From Methylomarinovum tepidoasis (GTDB lineage Bacteria > Pseudomonadota > Gammaproteobacteria > Methylococcales > Methylothermaceae), in contig NZ_AP024718.1 in the NCBI RefSeq assembly GCF_030294985.1, positions 1,131,001 to 1,195,000 of the forward strand: DNA of 64,000 bases, in the 5' to 3' direction. Positions within the stretch are counted from its first letter, which is position 1; each line of letters begins with the position of its first letter. Under the pieces are notes generated by a model, which searched no databases, was not told the DNA's origin, and was given only the letters and a program-made list of their open reading frames with translations. A program made the translations under genes and the position numbers. Shown piece by piece: positions 4,764 to 52,762 of this stretch.

Positions 4764-6032
4764 TCAATCAAGGTGGATCTCCACATAGGACTCGTCACGC
4801 AGCTTGCGCAGCCACAGTTCGGTCTCCTCCTCGATCTTGCGCCGGGTGAGGATCTCGCGGGCGCGCTTTTTGCGGTATTCCGGCGTGTCGTCGCGCTGTT
4901 TGCGCTCGAGCACCTGGATGATGTGCCAGCCGAAAGGCGTCTGTACCGGTTCGGAGATCTCTCCCTTCTTGAGCCGGTTCATGGCTTCGGCGAAGGGCGG
5001 GACAACGGCGTCGGCGGTGATCCAGCCCAGGTCGCCGCCCTTGACGGCCGAGGCGGTGTCGTCGGAATAGGCCTGGGCCAGGGCGGCGAAATCCTCCCCG
5101 GCTTCGATGCGCTGGCGGATCAGGTTCAGGCGGCGTCTGGCCTCGGCGTCGTCGACGATTTCGTTGGGCTTGATGAGAATGTGGCGCACGTGGCTCTCGA
5201 TGATAAGATGCTTCTCGCCCCCTTTCAGATCCAGCAGCTTGATGACGTGAAAGCCGCTGGGGCTGCGGATCGGGCCGGCGATCTCACCCTTCTGCATTTT
5301 GGGCACCAGGTCGGCGAACAGAGTGGGGATCTGGTCCAGCTTGCGCCAGCCCAGGTCGCCGCCCTTGAGCGCCTGGGCGCCGTCGGACAAGGTGATGGCG
5401 GCTTGGTGGAAATCCAGGCCCTGGCGCAGTTCCGCCACCAGGCGCTCGGCTTTTTCCCGTGCTTTCTGGATCACCTCCGGCGAGGTGGCCTCGGGGGTGG
5501 CGATGAGGATGTGGCCGAGGCGGTATTCGGTGGCCTGCAACGGGTCGCTTTGGGCTTCGGTTTCCAGGAAGTGGGTGATTTCCCGCTCGCTCACCTGAAC
5601 GTTGGCATCGACCTGGCTGGCCCGCAGGCGCTTGAGCACCAGCTCCTCGCGCAGATGATCGACGAAGGCGGCATAGTCCATGCCTTCGCTCTCCACCGCC
5701 TGGCGAAAGGCGTCCAGATTCATGCCGTTGCGGTGGGCCAGATCCAGCAGGGCCTGACGCAGGGTTTCATCGTCCACCTCGATGCCGGCTTTCCTGGCCA
5801 GCTGCAACTGCAGGCTGCGGAGGATCATGCGTTCGAGCACCTGGCGCCGCAGGATCGAAGGCGGCGGCAATGGCGCCCCCTGGGTGCGCAGCTGGCGGGC
5901 GATGGCGCCGGTCTGGCGCTCCAGTTCGCTCTCGAGGATCACGTCGTCCTCGGCGACGGCGACGATGCGGTCGAGAGGCTCGGCGTGGACGGCGGTCCAC
6001 AACAGGAGGAGGAAAAGCGGTAGATAGCGCAT
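4764..6032 (-). CDS. surA: Periplasmic chaperone / peptidyl-prolyl isomerase SurA
   Basis: Escorts unfolded outer-membrane proteins across the periplasm to the BAM complex. A signal peptide ([17 protein letters not shown]) is followed by the N-terminal chaperone domain to about residue 165. Two parvulin-type PpiC domains follow at about 169-270 and 280-380, each with the RLGHILI / VRHILIK start, then a short C-terminal helix. The 422 residues match the family. It starts 7 bp after lptD, whose product is a major SurA client. Confidence 0.97.
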
Positions 6033-6039
6033 CGAGATT

Positions 6040-10724
<4,685 letters not shown>

Positions 10725-43945: not shown

Positions 43946-44929
43946 ATGGCGCGCCTGATCCTGGGAGACCGTGTTTATCATCTTGATCCGGGGGAGACAG
44001 TGCTCGACTGTCTCCTTCGCCATCAGGAAGAAGTCGATTACGGTTGCCGGGCCGGTGTATGCCAGAGCTGTTTGCTGCAGGCCGAAGAACCTGTGCCGGC
44101 GTCGGCCCAAACAGGATTGAAAGATACGCTCAAGCGCCAGCGTTATTTTCTCGCTTGCAGTTATCGCCCGGAAACGGACCTGCACATTCGGATACCGGCG
44201 CGGGAGCGGTTCTCCACAGAGGTCATCGCGCATCACCGGTTGACGCCGGAAATCGTTCGCCTGAGATTGGCTGTGCCGGCGGCGTTTTCCTATCGGCCGG
44301 GGCAATATGTCAACCTGTTTCACCAGGGGCAGGTGCGCAGTTACTCGCTGGCGAGCTTGCCGGGCGAGCCGTTTCTGGAATTTCACATCCGCCGGGTTCC
44401 CGGCGGCCTGTTCAGTACCTGGATTTTTGAGGCATTGCATCCTGGAGATACGGTGCAGATCGGGCCGGCTTTGGGGGAATGTTTCTATACCCCGGAAGCG
44501 GCAGAGCAACCCCTGCTGCTTATAGGTACCGGCAGCGGTCTGGCGCCGCTCTACGGCATTCTGCGCGATGCCTTGGAACAAGGTCACCGGGAAGCCATTT
44601 ATCTGTATCATGGCAGCTCGACGCTGTCCGGCCTGTATTTGCAGGAAGCACTCCAGGCGCTGGCCTGCGATTATTCCCAGTTCCATTATGTTCCCTGCCT
44701 GTCACGGACACCGGTTCCGGACGGTATACGCCATGGTCGGGCTTCGGCGCTGGCGTTGGCCGATCATCCGCAATTGGAAAATTGGCGCATTTATTTGTGC
44801 GGCAATCCGGAGATGGTTCGATCCGCCCAGCGTCGTTGTTTCCTGGCGGGCGCGTCGATGCAGGCAATTCACGCTGACCCCTTCCTGTCTGCCAACGATT
44901 CCCAGGCACCCGGTCCCAGTTCACGGTAA
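43946..44929 (+). CDS. [2Fe-2S]/FAD ferredoxin reductase-type oxidoreductase
   Basis: A 327-residue three-domain flavoprotein. Residues 1-85 form a plant-type [2Fe-2S] ferredoxin with ligands C34, C39, C42 and C71. An FAD domain follows (RSYSLAS motif), then an NAD(P)H domain (GTGSGLAPLYGIL). It has the layout of phenol hydroxylase or CDP-6-deoxy-glucose reductase-like enzymes. Because it is directly next to a truncated haemoglobin it is most likely the globin's reductase, together a split version of flavohaemoglobin. That pairing is inferred. Confidence 0.88.
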   Translation: MARLILGDRVYHLDPGETVLDCLLRHQEEVDYGCRAGVCQSCLLQAEEPVPASAQTGLKDTLKRQRYFLACSYRPETDLHIRIPARERFSTEVIAHHRLTPEIVRLRLAVPAAFSYRPGQYVNLFHQGQVRSYSLASLPGEPFLEFHIRRVPGGLFSTWIFEALHPGDTVQIGPALGECFYTPEAAEQPLLLIGTGSGLAPLYGILRDALEQGHREAIYLYHGSSTLSGLYLQEALQALACDYSQFHYVPCLSRTPVPDGIRHGRASALALADHPQLENWRIYLCGNPEMVRSAQRRCFLAGASMQAIHADPFLSANDSQAPGPSSR

Positions 44930-45036: not shown

Positions 45037-46188
45037 ATGAAAGTCGGTTTTCTCTTCAATCATTATGCGCCCCACCAGGTGCCCCATGCGGCGCCGTACG
45101 CCTTTGAACTTTCGCGGCGGCATCCCGCATTCGAGGTCATCATCGCCTATTCCGCCCCGCACGAAAAACGGATGCTCGATGCCATCGCCGCCTTGTATCC
45201 CGGGCATCGTTGCCAGTTCCGCCATCTGCGCCCATCGTGGCATTACGCGTTGATCGATCCCATCGTTTCCCTAAAAAAGCTGCGGCGCAAGCGTGAAGTT
45301 TTGCGGAACAATCTGGATTTTTTCCGTTCTCTCGACGTACTGGTGGCGCCGGAACGCAATTGCCTGCAGCTCCGCACCCGTTACGGTTTCACCGATCTCA
45401 TCATGATTCATGCCCGTCACGGGGCTGGGGACCGGGAAGGCGGATTCGACGAGAAATCCGGCGCCTTCGATTTCACCCTGCTGCCAGGGCGCAAATACGT
45501 GGACCGCCTGACCGAGCTGGGCCGGTTACGTCCGGGGAGCTATGCGGTGGTGGGATGGCCCAAATTCGAGGTGGTGCGCGGCCTGGGAAAAGGCCGGCAA
45601 CGGTTCTTCGCCAACGACAATCCGGTGGTGGTGTACAATCCGCATTTCGATCAGGCGGTATCCTCCTGGCGTCCCATGGGGCTGGAGGTCCTGGAATTCT
45701 TCGCTCAGAACCGTGATTTCAATCTGATCTTCGCTCCCCACGTGGTGCTGTTCAAACGCCGCCTGCGTCACGGTGCCCATTTGCCGCGTCGGTACCGCAA
45801 GCTTCCCAACATCCATATCGATACCGGCAGCATGGCCTCGACCGACATGACCTACATGCTGGCAGCGGACATTTATCTGGGGGATGTCAGCAGTCAGGTA
45901 TACGAATTTCTGCTGGAACCGCGGCCCTGTGTCTTCCTGAACGGACACCGGGTCGACTGGCGGGGGAACCCGTTCTACTACCACTGGAATCTGGGGCAGG
46001 TGGTCGATGATGTCGCCACCCAGTTGCGTCCGGCGCTGGAGCGGGCCGAGGCGTTGCAGGAAACCTATCTGCCCCGGCAGCGGGAGGCGTTCGCCTACAC
46101 TTTCCTGAGCTGCGACGACAGCACCGCCGCCGAACGGGGCGCCGATGCCATTGCGGAATTCCTGCAGCGGAAGCGGGACGGTCAGTAG
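45037..46188 (+). CDS. CDP-glycerol glycerophosphotransferase-like protein
   Basis: A 383-residue GT-B-type transferase. The C-terminal half (YNPHFDQAVSSW, then HIDTGSMASTDMTYMLAADIYLGD with VSSQVYEFLL) follows the pattern of the Glyphos_transf family (TagB/TagF), whose members polymerise glycerol-phosphate from CDP-glycerol. No signal peptide or transmembrane helix. The acceptor and donor are unknown. The ATG at 45037 is preferred over an in-frame ATG at 44944. Downstream genes for a nucleotidyltransferase and a CDP-alcohol transferase suggest a CDP-activated polyol as donor. Confidence 0.75.
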   Translation: MKVGFLFNHYAPHQVPHAAPYAFELSRRHPAFEVIIAYSAPHEKRMLDAIAALYPGHRCQFRHLRPSWHYALIDPIVSLKKLRRKREVLRNNLDFFRSLDVLVAPERNCLQLRTRYGFTDLIMIHARHGAGDREGGFDEKSGAFDFTLLPGRKYVDRLTELGRLRPGSYAVVGWPKFEVVRGLGKGRQRFFANDNPVVVYNPHFDQAVSSWRPMGLEVLEFFAQNRDFNLIFAPHVVLFKRRLRHGAHLPRRYRKLPNIHIDTGSMASTDMTYMLAADIYLGDVSSQVYEFLLEPRPCVFLNGHRVDWRGNPFYYHWNLGQVVDDVATQLRPALERAEALQETYLPRQREAFAYTFLSCDDSTAAERGADAIAEFLQRKRDGQ

Positions 46189-46961
46189 GTGGTGGAAAGG
46201 TGGATTTCCGGGGCCTCCTCGGCGGAGGCGGCGCTCCAGTCCCATTGCCGGACCATGGCCTCGGCATGTTTGAAATCGAGCGGATAGTCGATCTCCATCC
46301 AGTCGAGCCCGTGGATGTTGTGGGTCCAGACCGGCTGGCCCGACTGGGAGATTTCGTCGATGACCGACAGATACCAGCGCTGCAGCGCGGCCGGTTCCCG
46401 CATGCACTCCTCGATGGTCTGGCGGAACAGGTCCGCACCTTCGGGATGGAACCGGATCATGCCGATAGATTCGCCGTTGACCCGTTCCAGGGGCAGCTTC
46501 TTGCCGATGGAGAGAAGCCGGTCGCCCTGGAGGATCAGCTTCATGTCGTCATCGTCGTAATGGGGCTTCTCGTCCCGGGCCAGGGTGATCGGCGGCTTCT
46601 GGGCGATCATCCGGCTCGCCAGAACCGGTTCGAACAGGGTGTCGCCGTTGATGAGAAGAAAGTCGCCGGTCATTTCCCCGCGCACCATCCAGCAGCTGGC
46701 CAGGTTGTCGGCCACTTCATAGAAGGGGTTGAAGACGATTTTGACCGCTCCCCTGCCATAGCGCCGGTCAAGGAGGCGCTGGACCTTTTCCATTTTGTAT
46801 CCGGCGACCACGACGATATCATGCACGCCGGCCGCTATCAGGGCGTCGATCTGCCATTCGATGATCGCCCTGCCTTCCAGTTTCAGGGTGCATTTGGGTT
46901 TGTCTGAAGTCAGGGGGAGCAAGCGGGTTCCCTGGCCGGCGCTGAGAATGATGGCTTTCAT
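46182..46961 (-). CDS. Sugar-/phosphocholine-cytidylyltransferase-like protein
   Basis: A 259-residue single-domain nucleotidyltransferase. N-terminal MKAIILSAGQGTRLLPLTSDKPKC is the NTP-binding signature and LLINGDTLFEP the metal-binding site. The sequence is closest in feel to LicC-type phosphocholine and inositol-phosphate cytidylyltransferases. The substrate is unknown. The ATG at 46961 begins at the signature. It is convergent with the transferase gene (7 bp overlap) and divergent from the CDP-alcohol phosphotransferase, which would use its product. Confidence 0.82.
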   Translation of the reverse strand: MKAIILSAGQGTRLLPLTSDKPKCTLKLEGRAIIEWQIDALIAAGVHDIVVVAGYKMEKVQRLLDRRYGRGAVKIVFNPFYEVADNLASCWMVRGEMTGDFLLINGDTLFEPVLASRMIAQKPPITLARDEKPHYDDDDMKLILQGDRLLSIGKKLPLERVNGESIGMIRFHPEGADLFRQTIEECMREPAALQRWYLSVIDEISQSGQPVWTHNIHGLDWMEIDYPLDFKHAEAMVRQWDWSAASAEEAPEIHLSTTY

Positions 46962-47130
46962 GCGTAAAATTCTTCCTGATCGAAAGCGGCTTGTAGCGAA
47001 GCGGCAACAAGCTGAAAAAATCAAAATGATCGTAGTATTTTCGGCCTCAGAGTATCCAAAACACCTGATTAACTCAAGCTGAATTTCTTTTGTTGCGCTT
47101 TGCCAAAAGACAATCGTATAGGAGCATTCG

Positions 47131-48318
47131 ATGACCGTTTATTATCATCTGGCAGGCCAGTCCGCGCCTGAACTGTGGGGATTGTCCGCGGACGAACGCA
47201 TCGCCCGTGTCCTGCGGCAGAAGTGCCGGGAGGATAGCGTGGCGCTCTGGCCGGAGTCTTCGGGGAAAGACGATGCAGCAGGCCGGGTACTGGTGCTGCG
47301 GCGGGATTTTCTCTACGATGAGCGTCTGATCGCGGCATTGCTTCGGCGTGAGGAGGATCTGGCCCTGGAGCGGGCGGGGCAGGTCGTCGCGGTCTGGACC
47401 GATGCCGGGCGGTTCCCGGCGGCACTCGCGCTGTTGCGGGGAGAAGGCGACCGTAGCCGATTCATACGGGTGACGCCGGACCAGTTGGCCTCCGGCGTGA
47501 CCCAGAAGCTGCGCAAGGTTTCTCCTCCCTTCGTGTTGCCGGTGACGGCGGAGAATGCATCCCGACTGGAACGCCACCTGTTTGACGAGTCTTACAAGGG
47601 CGTGACCGATCTGGTGACCAAATGGGTCTGGCCGCGGCTGGCGGAGCGGACGGTACGTTTCTGCGTGCGCTGCGGGATCCGTCCCAATCACGTCACCGCT
47701 GCCAGTTGGGTGCTGGCGATCCTGGTCGGGATTCTGTTCCTGCAAGGGTATCTGGGGCTGGGACTGGTGCTGGGATGGCTCATGACCTTCCTCGACACCG
47801 TTGACGGCAAGCTGGCGCGGGTGACGGTGGATTCCAGCCGCTTCGGGCATTTCTTCGACCATGTCCTCGACGTGGTCCATCCACCTTTGTGGTATCTGGC
47901 ATGGGGGTTGGGGCTGGAGAATTACCAGCCGCTGCTGGTGAAGCTGCCCCTGATGGAAACCTTCTGGCTGCTGCTGGCCGGCTACGTGGGGGGGCGTTTT
48001 GCCGAGGCGCTGTTCAAACGCTTCATCGGCTTCAGTATCTTTACCTGGGAGGTGACCGATTCGGTCAACCGGCTGCTCACCGCCCGGCGCAATCCGTGCC
48101 TGATCCTGCTGAGCGCCGGTTATTTGCTGGGTCGTCCGGATCTGGGTTTCGAGGCGGTGACGCTCTGGACGCTGGCGTCCACGCTGTTCCTGTGGGGGCG
48201 GTTGGGGTTGGCCCTGTGGCGCAAGCGTCGGGGCGAGCGGCTGGCTTCCTGGCTCGATCAGGTCGATCCGGACGCCGTTACGGGAGCGGCGGCCTGGTTC
48301 GTTCAGCGCGGCCACTGA
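47131..48318 (+). CDS. CDP-alcohol phosphotransferase with N-terminal extension
   Basis: A 395-residue protein. The C-terminal membrane domain carries the complete family motif D-x2-D-G-x2-A-R-x8-G-x3-D-x3-D (FLDTVDGKLARVTVDSSRFG then HFFDHVLD), with about six helices. The first 150 residues are soluble and resemble a worn nucleotidyltransferase domain without its signature. Fused proteins of this layout include the inositol-phosphate cytidylyltransferase/DIPP synthase of thermophiles, where the two activities are joined. Here the active cytidylyltransferase may be the neighbouring divergent gene. Confidence 0.82.
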   Translation: MTVYYHLAGQSAPELWGLSADERIARVLRQKCREDSVALWPESSGKDDAAGRVLVLRRDFLYDERLIAALLRREEDLALERAGQVVAVWTDAGRFPAALALLRGEGDRSRFIRVTPDQLASGVTQKLRKVSPPFVLPVTAENASRLERHLFDESYKGVTDLVTKWVWPRLAERTVRFCVRCGIRPNHVTAASWVLAILVGILFLQGYLGLGLVLGWLMTFLDTVDGKLARVTVDSSRFGHFFDHVLDVVHPPLWYLAWGLGLENYQPLLVKLPLMETFWLLLAGYVGGRFAEALFKRFIGFSIFTWEVTDSVNRLLTARRNPCLILLSAGYLLGRPDLGFEAVTLWTLASTLFLWGRLGLALWRKRRGERLASWLDQVDPDAVTGAAAWFVQRGH

Positions 48319-49438
48319 CCGTCCGCAGAATCTGCAAATATTCCGTCACGGCCCGTGCTGGCGTGTAGCGCCAAGCTTTTTGGCGCAGCGCGGCGATGTC
48401 TGCGGGTGTCTGCAGCGCCTGTTGCATCGCCCCAGCCAGGGCCTGATCGTCTCCGACCGGCACCAGGGGGGCGAGGCGGCCGTTCTCGAGAAGCTCCCGC
48501 GGCCCGCTGGGGCAGTCGGTGCTGACCACCGGACAGCCGCAGGCCATGGCCTCCACCAGGACGCCGGGGAAACCTTCCCAGCGGGAGGAGAGGACGAACA
48601 GATCGGCCCGGGCCATCCAGGCATAGGGATTGGAAGTAAAACCCGGCAGGGCCACCCGGTCCGTCAGGGCCAACGTCCGGATGAGCCGTTCCAGCTGCGG
48701 GCGTTGTCTGCCTTCGCCGAGAACGACCAGACGGGCAGGTTGCCGCAAGCGCGCCAGGGCCCGTATCAGGGTGGGAAAATCCTTCTGGGGCGACAGCCGG
48801 CCGGCAGCGACGATCAACGGGCGGCTTTCGTCGTCGGCCCAGGGGTGGTCGACAGGTTGGTGGGCGAGGGTTTCGATTTCCGGCGTCAGGGTGGGATTGG
48901 TGGCCACGAACACCCGCTCCCGGAGGGCGGGGACGTGGCGGCGCAGATCGGCCGCGATGTCGTGACAGACGGCAATGGCCGCGTCCGCCTCGCCATACAG
49001 GGCCCGCGCCGTTTGCAGGCGTGCCAGTTGCCCCGTCTGTTGGTGGGAGGCAGTGAGGTGGTTGCTGACCCGCAGGACCAGGGGAATCCCGGTGGCGCTC
49101 AGGCGGCGGCCCCGTACAGCGCTCATATGCGCATGGTTGGCGGCGGACAGCAGCAGGTCGGGGCGGTGGCGACGCAGGTACTCGGCCAGTGCCGGGGCGG
49201 CCGCCTCCATGAGTCGGCGGCGTCGGGGGCGAAGGCGGCGCCGGAATCGCAGCGCCCAGGAATCCAGGGCGATCAGGTTGAGCGCGGGGGGGAGTCGTTC
49301 GGCCAGGGGGCCTGTGGGATCGATCACGACCAGATCGGTGCGAAGGCCGTGATCGCTGAATCCTTCGGCCAGGGCCAGGGTGCGCCGGGTGGCCCCGCCT
49401 CCGGTCAGACCGTAGAGGAACAGGGCGACGTGGCGCAC
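48278..49438 (-). CDS. GT4-family glycosyltransferase
   Basis: A 386-residue GT-B glycosyltransferase. The N-terminal LFLYGLTGGGATRRTLALAE is the acceptor-side glycine-rich loop, and the C-terminal EGFPGVLVEAMACGCPVVST carries the E-x7-E donor-binding motif. It starts with GTG at 49438, 2 bp after the stop of the small membrane protein, in the same transcript. It is convergent with the CDP-alcohol transferase and overlaps it by 41 bp. Sugar donor and acceptor are unknown. Confidence 0.88.
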   Translation of the reverse strand: MRHVALFLYGLTGGGATRRTLALAEGFSDHGLRTDLVVIDPTGPLAERLPPALNLIALDSWALRFRRRLRPRRRRLMEAAAPALAEYLRRHRPDLLLSAANHAHMSAVRGRRLSATGIPLVLRVSNHLTASHQQTGQLARLQTARALYGEADAAIAVCHDIAADLRRHVPALRERVFVATNPTLTPEIETLAHQPVDHPWADDESRPLIVAAGRLSPQKDFPTLIRALARLRQPARLVVLGEGRQRPQLERLIRTLALTDRVALPGFTSNPYAWMARADLFVLSSRWEGFPGVLVEAMACGCPVVSTDCPSGPRELLENGRLAPLVPVGDDQALAGAMQQALQTPADIAALRQKAWRYTPARAVTEYLQILRTVSGRAERTRPPLP

Positions 49439-51339: not shown

Positions 51340-52176
51340 TCATACCTTGCGCTCGATCCAGTCCAGCAGCCGGAAAGGCAGCACCCGCCGCAGGAAGGCG
51401 AACAGATAGGTGGGGAAGGTGACGTAGTAGCGGATCTTGGGCCGCGGCGCTTCCAGGGCGTGGATCACTTTCTGGGCCACCGCCTCCGGCGGCAGGGTGA
51501 AGGGGGCCACCGGGCCTTTCTTTTGCAGTTTGGCTTCCATGCGTTCATAGACGGCCCGATGGGGACTGTGTTCGACGTCGATGTTCTCCTTGAACTTGCG
51601 GTAGGCGTTGTCGCGGAATTTGGTCAGAATCGGCCCCGGTTCCACCAACACCACGTGGATCCCGGTGCCGTACAGTTCCAGGCGCAGGCAGTCGGCCAGC
51701 CCTTCCAGAGCGAACTTGCTGGCCACGTAGGCGCCGCGGTAGGGCAGGGCGATGAAGCCCAGCACCGAGCTGTTGTAGATGATCCGGCCGCGCCCCTGCC
51801 GCCGCATCACCGGCAGAATCCGGTTGGTCAGTTCCTGGGTGCCGAACAGATTGGTCTCGAACTGGGCCCGGAGCACGTCGCGGCTGAGATCCTCCACCGC
51901 TCCCACCTGCCCCCAGGCGCCGTTGTTGAACAGAGCGTCCAGGGTGCCGCCGCTCCATGCCAGCACCTGTTCGACGGCGGCCTGAATGCTGGCCGGATCG
52001 TCCAGGTCCAGCCGCACCGCCTCGAAGCCCTCGTCCTGCAGCCGTTCGACATCCTCCGGTTTGCGCGCCGAGGCGAACACCCGGTAGCCGCGTTCCTTCA
52101 GGGCCTTGGCGGTGACGTAACCGATGCCGCTGGAGCAGCCGGTGATGAGAACGGTATCGACAGGTCGTTTGCTCAC
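51340..52176 (-). CDS. Short-chain dehydrogenase/reductase
   Basis: A 278-residue classical SDR. The NAD(P)-binding TGCSSGIGYVTA lies near residue 12, NNGAWGQ is the NNAG-type segment, and the catalytic Ser, Tyr and Lys appear in IYNSSVLGF and YRGAYVASK. The hydrophobic C-terminus (PTYLFAFLRRVLPFRLLDW) may touch the membrane. Substrate unknown. It starts with GTG at 52176 after GAGGAAACC; the frame upstream is open but has no better start. It lies 19 bp after dcd. Confidence 0.88.
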   Translation of the reverse strand: MSKRPVDTVLITGCSSGIGYVTAKALKERGYRVFASARKPEDVERLQDEGFEAVRLDLDDPASIQAAVEQVLAWSGGTLDALFNNGAWGQVGAVEDLSRDVLRAQFETNLFGTQELTNRILPVMRRQGRGRIIYNSSVLGFIALPYRGAYVASKFALEGLADCLRLELYGTGIHVVLVEPGPILTKFRDNAYRKFKENIDVEHSPHRAVYERMEAKLQKKGPVAPFTLPPEAVAQKVIHALEAPRPKIRYYVTFPTYLFAFLRRVLPFRLLDWIERKV

Positions 52177-52195
52177 GGAGGTTTCCTCGTAGTGT

Positions 52196-52762
52196 TCAGG
52201 CTTTGGGCAGGGTGACCCCGGTCTGGCCCTGATACTTGCCGCCGCGGTCGGCATAGGAGGTTTCGCATTCCTCGTCGGACTCCAGAAAGATCATCTGGGC
52301 CACCCCCTCATGGGCGTAGATCTTGGCCGGCAGCGGGGTGGTGTTGGAAAATTCCAGGGTGACGTGACCTTCCCATTCCGGTTCCAGAGGCGTGATATTT
52401 ACGATCACGCCGCATCTGGCGTAAGTGGACTTTCCCATACAAATTGTAAGTATATTGCGCGGAATTCGAAAATACTCCACCGTCCGCGCCAGGGCGAAGG
52501 AGTTGGGCGGGATGATGCAGACGTCGGATTTGACGTCCACGAAACTGGCCGGGTCAAAGTCCTTGGGATCGACGATGGTGGAGTTGATGTTGGTGAACAC
52601 CTTGAATTCGTCGGCGCAGCGCACGTCGTAGCCGTAGCTGGAGGTGCCGAAGGAGATGACCCGCCGGCCTTCGAGCGCAGAAATCAGGTTGGGCTCGAAA
52701 GGCTCGATCATGCCGTGTTCCTCGGCCATGCGGCGGATCCAGCGGTCGGATTTGATCGTCAT
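52196..52762 (-). CDS. dcd: dCTP deaminase
   Basis: Converts dCTP to dUTP on the way to dTTP. The 188-residue protein begins [19 protein letters not shown] and has the trimeric dUTPase-like core with [20 protein letters not shown], which contains the catalytic Glu region, and the C-terminal [13 protein letters not shown] nucleotide-capping tail. Length and motifs match the Gammaproteobacterial monofunctional enzyme. The ATG overlaps the mrp stop (ATGA). Confidence 0.96.

Follow-up and report, generated by a model that had tools for sequence, protein, structure and literature searches.

Background

The described system closest to the genes considered here is the Caulobacter pathway for ceramide phosphoglycerate (CPG) and CPG2, encoded by CC_1152–CC_1168. 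The C. crescentus cluster comprises CC_1161 (similar to synthases of cytidine diphosphate (CDP)-diacylglycerol), CC_1160 (ceramide kinase), CC_1159 (CDP-alcohol enzyme), CC_1158 (phosphoesterase), CC_1156/CC_1155 (LptF2/LptG2), CC_1154 (a dihydroceramide gene, CerS), CC_1153 (CofC-like) and CC_1152 (nucleotidyltransferase) (PMC11324152); CpgD, the product of CC_1152, forms CDP-glycerate from cytidine triphosphate (CTP) and phosphoglycerate (PMC12275187). CpgB is required for CPG in Caulobacter. How sphingolipids get from the inner membrane to the outer is described as not understood (PMC11324152). Here, we analysed a window of 64,000 nucleotides (nt) from the thermophilic, methane-oxidising gammaproteobacterium Methylomarinovum tepidoasis IN45 (NCBI RefSeq assembly GCF_030294985.1, contig NZ_AP024718.1, positions 1,131,001 to 1,195,000 of the forward strand), together with the rest of a genome that consists of a 2,421,873-base chromosome (C1) and a 20,514-base second contig (plasmid). 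The subject is a span of four genes at 45037–49438 of the window, in which the divergent central pair (46182–46961 and 47131–48318) most probably encodes the enzymes CpgD and CpgA for phosphosphingolipid (ceramide phosphoglycerate) synthesis of the Caulobacter type. We further incline to the view that this free-living gammaproteobacterium has lost lipid A, the usual outer-membrane anchor lipid among its relatives, and that its whole Lpt bridge serves an anionic phosphosphingolipid, the head group of which would be added by CpgD and CpgA without a kinase. Searches of the open-licence PMC literature showed no earlier report of this system.

The genome shares with the Caulobacter cluster the ceramide genes, enzymes of the CpgD and CpgA types, CpgC, enzymes of the CC_1153 and CC_1158 types and permeases of the LptF2/LptG2 type, whereas it differs in having no CpgB, in the distribution of the genes over three loci, in the divergent CpgD/CpgA pair, in a sulfotransferase and an OlsC-like protein within the series, in the TagF-like and GT4 neighbours of the pair, and in the absence of lipid A genes where they are expected. 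Sphingomonas makes sphingolipids and not lipid A (PMC10964400), and the title of a reference in that paper names them as glycosphingolipids. A sphingolipid in place of lipid A is likewise proposed here; however, Sphingomonas is alphaproteobacterial, whereas the present case would concern a phosphosphingolipid in a gammaproteobacterium. IPCT-DIPPS and AF2299 (4mnd, 4o6m) resemble the product of 47131–48318 in joining a CDP-OH-P membrane domain to an N-terminal cytidylyltransferase-like domain, but here, in contrast to IPCT-DIPPS, a gene of its own encodes the active cytidylyltransferase, and the genome has no inositol-phosphate synthase. The TagF/TarF teichoic acid polymerases share the GT-B fold with the product of 45037–46188, which, unlike them, stays below the Pfam cut-off and has no TagF sequence match in the PDB at E≤1, in a genome without TagD.

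The probable CpgD/CpgA pair

The outer borders of the four open frames coincide exactly with the span picked out by an earlier, sequence-only reading of this DNA. The features are as follows.

45037–46188, + strand: TagF/CDP-glycerol-transferase-like GT-B protein; match to Pfam Glyphos_transf (PF04464) below the cut-off
46182–46961, − strand: predicted CpgD-type CTP:phosphoglycerate cytidylyltransferase; Pfam NTP_transferase 45.9 bits, over the cut-off
46962–47130, no strand: intergenic gap between the divergent cpgD-like and cpgA-like genes; 169 bp, 41% GC against 65% for the window
47131–48318, + strand: CpgA-type CDP-alcohol phosphotransferase with a degenerate cytidylyltransferase-like N-domain; Pfam CDP-OH_P_transf (PF01066) 39.7 bits, over the cut-off
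48281–49438, − strand: GT4 glycosyltransferase; Pfam GT4 domains over their cut-offs

The four packed genes of that reading are thus real. However, they alternate in strand and therefore do not form a single transcription unit; the overlaps (7 and 38 bp) occur at convergent ends only, and the low-GC divergent gap may hold a shared promoter region.

Thirteen CpgD residues are named in PMC13228409, a preprint of 2026, and PMC12275187 (Lys26 and Asp112 being taken as CpgD numbering), and these were placed on the product of 46182–46961 by hand, without the CpgD sequence, at offsets of 3, 4, 5, 7 and again 5. The resulting correspondences are Gly12 to Gly9, Arg16 to Arg13, Lys26 to Lys23, Thr88 to Ala84, Asn90 to Asn86, Thr93 to Ser89, Asn110 to Asn105, Gly111 to Gly106, Asp112 to Asp107, Met147 to Met140, Lys161 to Lys154, Ser170 to Ser165 and Trp201 to Trp196. 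By this mapping, 11 of the 13 residues are identical, all 11 of which are invariant across 14 aligned relatives; the exceptions are Thr93, which is Ser, and Thr88, a backbone contact, which is Ala. The inositol-1-phosphate cytidylyltransferase of T. maritima (4jd0), as aligned, keeps none of Asn110, Met147, Ser170 and Trp201. This conservation supports phosphoglycerate as the predicted substrate.

In the product of 47131–48318, the aspartates of the signature D-x2-D-G-x2-A-R-x8-G-x3-D-x3-D are all invariant across 37 sequences. Its AlphaFold model (mean predicted local distance difference test score, pLDDT, 92.5) has AF2299 (4o6m) as its best PDB match and aligns over most of its length to both AF2299 and the fused IPCT-DIPPS 4mnd, on which ground the N-domain is assigned as a degenerate cytidylyltransferase; against the stand-alone IPCT 2xme the alignment is weak (E 0.06–0.2). 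The "worn nucleotidyltransferase-like N-terminus" described from the sequence is thus borne out by the model. Also supported is the broader proposal of a CDP-alcohol pathway in which an active cytidylyltransferase is split from a transferase carrying a degenerate N-domain.

Conservation and family context

The divergent pair is kept in all five same-genus genomes that have room on both sides (G383, G377, G372, G407 and G387), and it is cut at the gene in two more (G395 and G403). Its TagF-like and GT4 neighbours recur in one of these five. Conservation together, on which the sequence-only reading had staked its proposal, therefore holds for the pair and fails for the TagF-like and GT4 genes in four of the five genus members. 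At E≤1e-10, CpgA was detected in 9 of 201 genomes of the order, of which eight (the present one included) belong to this genus; in the class, it was detected in 12 of 369 genomes at E≤1e-20. The CpgA matches in G150 and G262, which belong to one genus, each contain one in-frame TGA.

Relatives of the CDP-alcohol enzyme were collected at 62 loci (37–60% identity over the best segment) from Nitrosomonas, gammaproteobacteria, Desulfobacterales, other "deltaproteobacteria", Myxococcota, Nitrospirae and others. The nearest named contigs are labelled Methylothermaceae, and two of these coincide with same-genus loci (L005 with L117, and L006 with L119). The companion genes were clustered over 67 sequences, made up of the 62 loci of relatives, another four from the own genome and part of the window, many of the loci ending at contig edges. 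Among these 67 sequences, the companions of the CDP-OH-P gene are of the CpgB/CpgC types (55), the MobA/CofC-like nucleotidyltransferase or CC_1153 type (42), LptF/LptG (37), the GNAT-like or CerS type (33), the CpgD type (28, two of them from the own genome) and metallophosphoesterases (24). Since these companions match the domain content of C. crescentus CC_1152–CC_1161, the family was assigned to the phosphosphingolipid cluster. Two loci (L047 and L056) carry two CpgA-type genes each, for which two successive transfers of a phospho-unit are possible.

The remainder of the probable sphingolipid pathway

The ceramide locus of the genome (L074, C1:1.507–1.515 Mb) encodes a CC_1153-type protein, CerS, AasR, CerR, AcpR, Spt and an ATP-binding cassette (ABC) exporter, so that the ceramide core of Spt, CerS, CerR, AasR and AcpR is complete within C1:1.507–1.513 Mb. 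Spt scores 620 bits against the 500-bit cut-off of the NCBIfam serine palmitoyltransferase equivalog model, CerS is matched at E 2.7e-167, and AcpR, which lies between CerR and Spt, is an 81-residue phosphopantetheine carrier protein (PF00550, 47.7 bits). A short-chain dehydrogenase/reductase gene in the window (51340–52254) was considered as a 3-ketosphinganine reductase and rejected, as it reaches 172 bits against a cut-off of 400 and PRK05993 fits it better (399 vs. 387).

A further locus (L075, C1:1.328–1.334 Mb) holds LptF, LptG, a phosphoesterase (−), CpgC, a sulfotransferase (−) and an OlsC-like hydroxylase (−). CpgC, which is Tam41/CDP-diacylglycerol-synthase-like, lies at C1:1330918–1331850 (E 6.6e-109), its Pfam Tam41 score of 22.3 bits falling just under the cut-off of 24. 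The sulfotransferase (9853–10971 of L075, − strand; PF13469, 58.7 bits) stands between CpgC and the OlsC-like gene, and relatives at 55–60% occupy the same place in two other loci (L010 and L012); the sphingolipid may be sulfated, and the OlsC-like protein is a probable 2-hydroxylase. A frame called as a sulfotransferase by eye in another locus (L102, 11922–12929) has no Pfam match at E≤0.001 and was dropped. In L010 and L012, the order runs unbroken as CerS, CC_1153 type, CpgD (−), LptF, LptG, phosphoesterase (−), CpgA, CpgC, sulfotransferase (−) and OlsC (+). Compared with these, the series is split over three loci in M. tepidoasis, CpgA is gone from the slot between the phosphoesterase and CpgC, OlsC is inverted, and CpgD and CpgA, which are separate there, form the divergent pair.

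Lipid A genes and the Lpt bridge

The PF03739 profile finds a single LptF/LptG pair in the whole genome, i.e., the one adjoining CpgC; a third, sub-cut-off hit (18.5 bits) belongs to a CtaA protein (PF02628, 188.5 bits) and was rejected as a further LptF/LptG. The best matches of the pair are the LptF and LptG of sphingolipid clusters, at 279 and 255 bits (45% and 36%), whereas their E. coli counterparts reach 99 and 154 bits (28% and 29%); no ordinary pair of a closer relative was part of the comparison. Being the only one, it is not a second pair as in Caulobacter. An ordinary lipopolysaccharide (LPS) pair beside pepA, holC and valS was also considered, but none of these E. coli neighbours matched the 20-kb locus. 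It was this single, sphingolipid-type pair that prompted a search for LPS genes, for which E. coli proteins served as queries.

In E. coli, the relevant gene orders are bamA-skp-lpxD-fabZ-lpxA-lpxB-rnhB-dnaE, ftsZ-lpxC and msbA-lpxK-ycaQ-ycaR-kdsB, and lpxK stands before ycaR-kdsB in many gammaproteobacteria. In M. tepidoasis, the first becomes bamA-skp-fabZ-rnhB-dnaE (L176, C1:230001–250000), with 23 bp between skp and fabZ, overlapping fabZ and rnhB frames and no lpxD, lpxA or lpxB; the next gene after ftsZ, at about 50 bp, encodes a mannose-6-phosphate isomerase (L137), leaving no room for the missing lpxC; and exbB and exbD lead straight to ycaR-kdsB without lpxK (L214), as they do, by eye, in the sister species. 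These five lpx absences without room at three conserved sites are strong evidence of loss. With E. coli queries (partly at E≤1e-5), lpxA, lpxB, lpxC, lpxD, lpxK and waaA were all missing from the plasmid and from the 54.1% of the chromosome covered, lpxH, lpxL and kdsA not being sought; in the sister genome, 20 stretches (400 kb) near the predicted bamA and ftsZ sites contained neither gene. The genes kdsB, kdsC, kdsD, lptA, lptB and lptD are retained, four of them in the order kdsD-kdsC-lptA-lptB (L142 6614–9351, C1:906614–909351), where lptC is missing between kdsC and lptA, also in the sister species. The cell may be LPS-free, with much of an Lpt bridge in place. The outer-membrane component is encoded in the window.

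6040–8778, − strand: LptD outer-membrane translocon; the true start may lie further in

This protein aligns with E. coli LptD at 25.6% over 746 aa (tblastn) and matches NCBIfam LptD models at E 5e-144 and 4e-105, both under the curated cut-offs. The surA gene (4764–6032, −) adjoins it.

Published lipid chemistry

In Table 2 of the species description, none of the five Methylothermaceae entries shows a 3-hydroxy acid, while 16:0 2-OH amounts to 4.8% in the sister species and 8.4% in "Methylothermus thermalis"; unknown phospholipids are major in the sister species (PMC10950024). The 2-hydroxy acids fit the OlsC-like enzyme, and the missing 3-hydroxy acids fit a lack of lipid A. Extraction methods may miss amide-linked acids. 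The 3-hydroxy acids are missing from all five entries, of which IN45 and the sister species are those whose genes were examined here. Neither "lipopolysaccharide" nor "sphingo" occurs in the text of the description (PMC10950024).

The TagF-like and GT4 neighbours

The TagF-like product reaches 19.7 bits with Pfam Glyphos_transf, against a cut-off of 22.1. Its AlphaFold model (pLDDT 85.1) places TagF 3l7l at rank 2 among UDP-GlcNAc 2-epimerases with similar scores, and a search of the family against PDB sequences returned no TagF chain at E≤1; as that search gave nothing useful, no catalytic residues are claimed for this protein. One relative belongs to the sphingolipid cluster of G202 (L102, 48%). 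In L038, another (63%) lies upstream of an ABC gene and CpgA, at a distance of two genes, and in L050 a third (42%) is three genes away from CpgA. Within the class, 19 of 369 genomes have a match at E≤0.001 and only five one below 1e-50 (the own genome, G202, G120, G145 and G212), three of which also have CpgA (the own genome, G202 and G120). With the own genome left out, this co-occurrence is 2 vs. 0.12 expected (P 0.005, kinship ignored and the 1e-50 line drawn post hoc). No neighbour of the TagF-like gene in G120, G145 and G212 was recognised as a cluster gene. Relatives of the GT4 protein stand beside the TagF-like gene of L038 (47%) and beside a CpgD-like gene (L061, 45%).

The two proteins are a possible accessory head-group extender and glycosyltransferase. 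That they extend the sphingolipid to a glycosylated phosphoglycerate chain, so that ceramide would bear a teichoic-like replacement of O-antigen, is a speculation to which we give little credence. On the far side of the TagF-like gene, a frame called by eye as ferredoxin-reductase-like (43946–44929, +) has 59% GC and 64% third-position GC, both below the values of the six other genes measured.

Alternative explanations

A Cpg-like pathway could also operate beside LPS, the sphingolipid being additional, as in Caulobacter, and the lipid A genes having been relocated to the 46% of the chromosome outside the search. The retained LptA, LptB, LptD and 3-deoxy-D-manno-octulosonic acid (Kdo) genes would fit such an arrangement; however, each of the five lpx genes would have had to leave a conserved neighbourhood that now has no room for it, none of them, nor waaA, turned up in the searched share of the genome, lptC has gone from between kdsC and lptA, and there is one LptF/LptG pair only, so that we regard this as unlikely, if a serious contender. 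A surface phosphopolymer made independently of ceramide is very unlikely. Here, the cytidylyltransferase would make a CDP-polyol, the TagF-like and GT4 proteins would polymerise it and the CDP-OH-P enzyme would prime the chain on a lipid. In M. tepidoasis as in the sister species, the TagF-like gene does abut the pair, and its model matches TagF, but the pair stands without the two neighbours in four of the five same-genus genomes with room, and where TagF-like genes lie near CpgA (L102, L038 and L050) they are in or near a sphingolipid cluster. The TagD-fed teichoic route envisaged from the sequence likewise finds no support, the best TIGR01518 score in the genome being 13.6 bits against a cut-off of 165.4.

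Least probable, and in our view barely credible, is a glycerophospholipid or inositol-type head group (by a phosphatidylinositol-phosphate synthase-like enzyme) or the di-inositol-phosphate solute route of thermophiles, to which the sequence-only reading had likened the split of the enzymes. Among solved structures, AF2299, phosphatidylinositol-phosphate synthases and IPCT-DIPPS do match the CDP-OH-P protein best, and the NCBIfam archaetidylinositol phosphate synthase model gives 53.4 bits, far under its cut-off of 180. However, inositol-1-phosphate synthase (PF01658) has 0 matches at E≤1 in the genome (in a control, the profile matched 9 of 14 genomes), three further CDP-OH-P genes could serve ordinary phospholipids, the family sits in ceramide clusters, and the four CpgD residues named above are not kept in the T. 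maritima inositol enzyme. The other option of that reading, a phospholipid head group, is the one now supported; the likely phosphosphingolipid identity and the lipid A context go beyond it.

Several points weigh against the assignment to a CPG-type pathway in a cell without lipid A. A profile built from four CpgB-type proteins gave a best E of 0.03 in the genome, and a retest, in case this profile was too narrow, with PF00781 (DAGK_cat) gave at best 18.9 bits against a cut-off of 23.6 over about 32 positions only; without production of ceramide-1-phosphate, the retained CpgC would have no obvious substrate. Orthology to the Caulobacter genes is judged from domains and synteny, not from direct sequence comparison. 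Of the ten same-genus genomes listed, two gave no CpgA, namely G391 (98% complete) and G399 (96%). The lpx search used E. coli queries only, on little more than half of the chromosome and without a positive control in a related genome, and the retained Kdo genes kdsB, kdsC and kdsD call for caution. In PMC10950024, moreover, 16:0 2-OH is not in the table for IN45, and the main polar lipid of IN45 is phosphatidylserine, with several unknown phospholipids.

Concerning the kinase, 61 of the 62 loci were readable (L060 falling outside the CpgA cluster), and in 47 of them 4 kb or more of sequence lies downstream of CpgA. By clustering, 33 of these 47 have CpgB and CpgC within reach, 9 have CpgC alone and 5 have neither, genes elsewhere in those genomes not being sought. 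CpgB-less clusters thus recur. As CpgB was sought and not found, the system is not counted here among full members of the Caulobacter pathway; we place it as a variant that lacks the known kinase and would work like that pathway.

Proposed pathway and significance

In the proposed CPG-type pathway, CpgD would convert 2-phosphoglycerate and CTP to CDP-glycerate, and the membrane enzyme CpgA would pass the phosphoglycerate unit of CDP-glycerate to ceramide as the acceptor, supplied by the genes at C1:1.507–1.513 Mb, with release of CMP. Since no CpgB-type kinase was found, direct transfer by CpgA is the simplest chemistry: CpgA would put the first phospho-unit directly on ceramide, as choline and ethanolamine phosphotransferases do on diacylglycerol. 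An unrelated ceramide kinase in place of CpgB is also possible. The finished anionic lipid would probably be exported over LptB-LptF-LptG, LptA and LptD and, given the absence of lipid A genes from the customary sites, probably fills the outer leaflet.

With a single LptF/LptG pair beside sphingolipid genes and the lipid A genes missing at their usual sites, this organism makes the hypothesis of sphingolipid transport by Lpt proteins directly testable. It would offer a natural case in which to ask why lipid A is usually essential, and its pathway may represent a kinase-less route to phosphosphingolipids.

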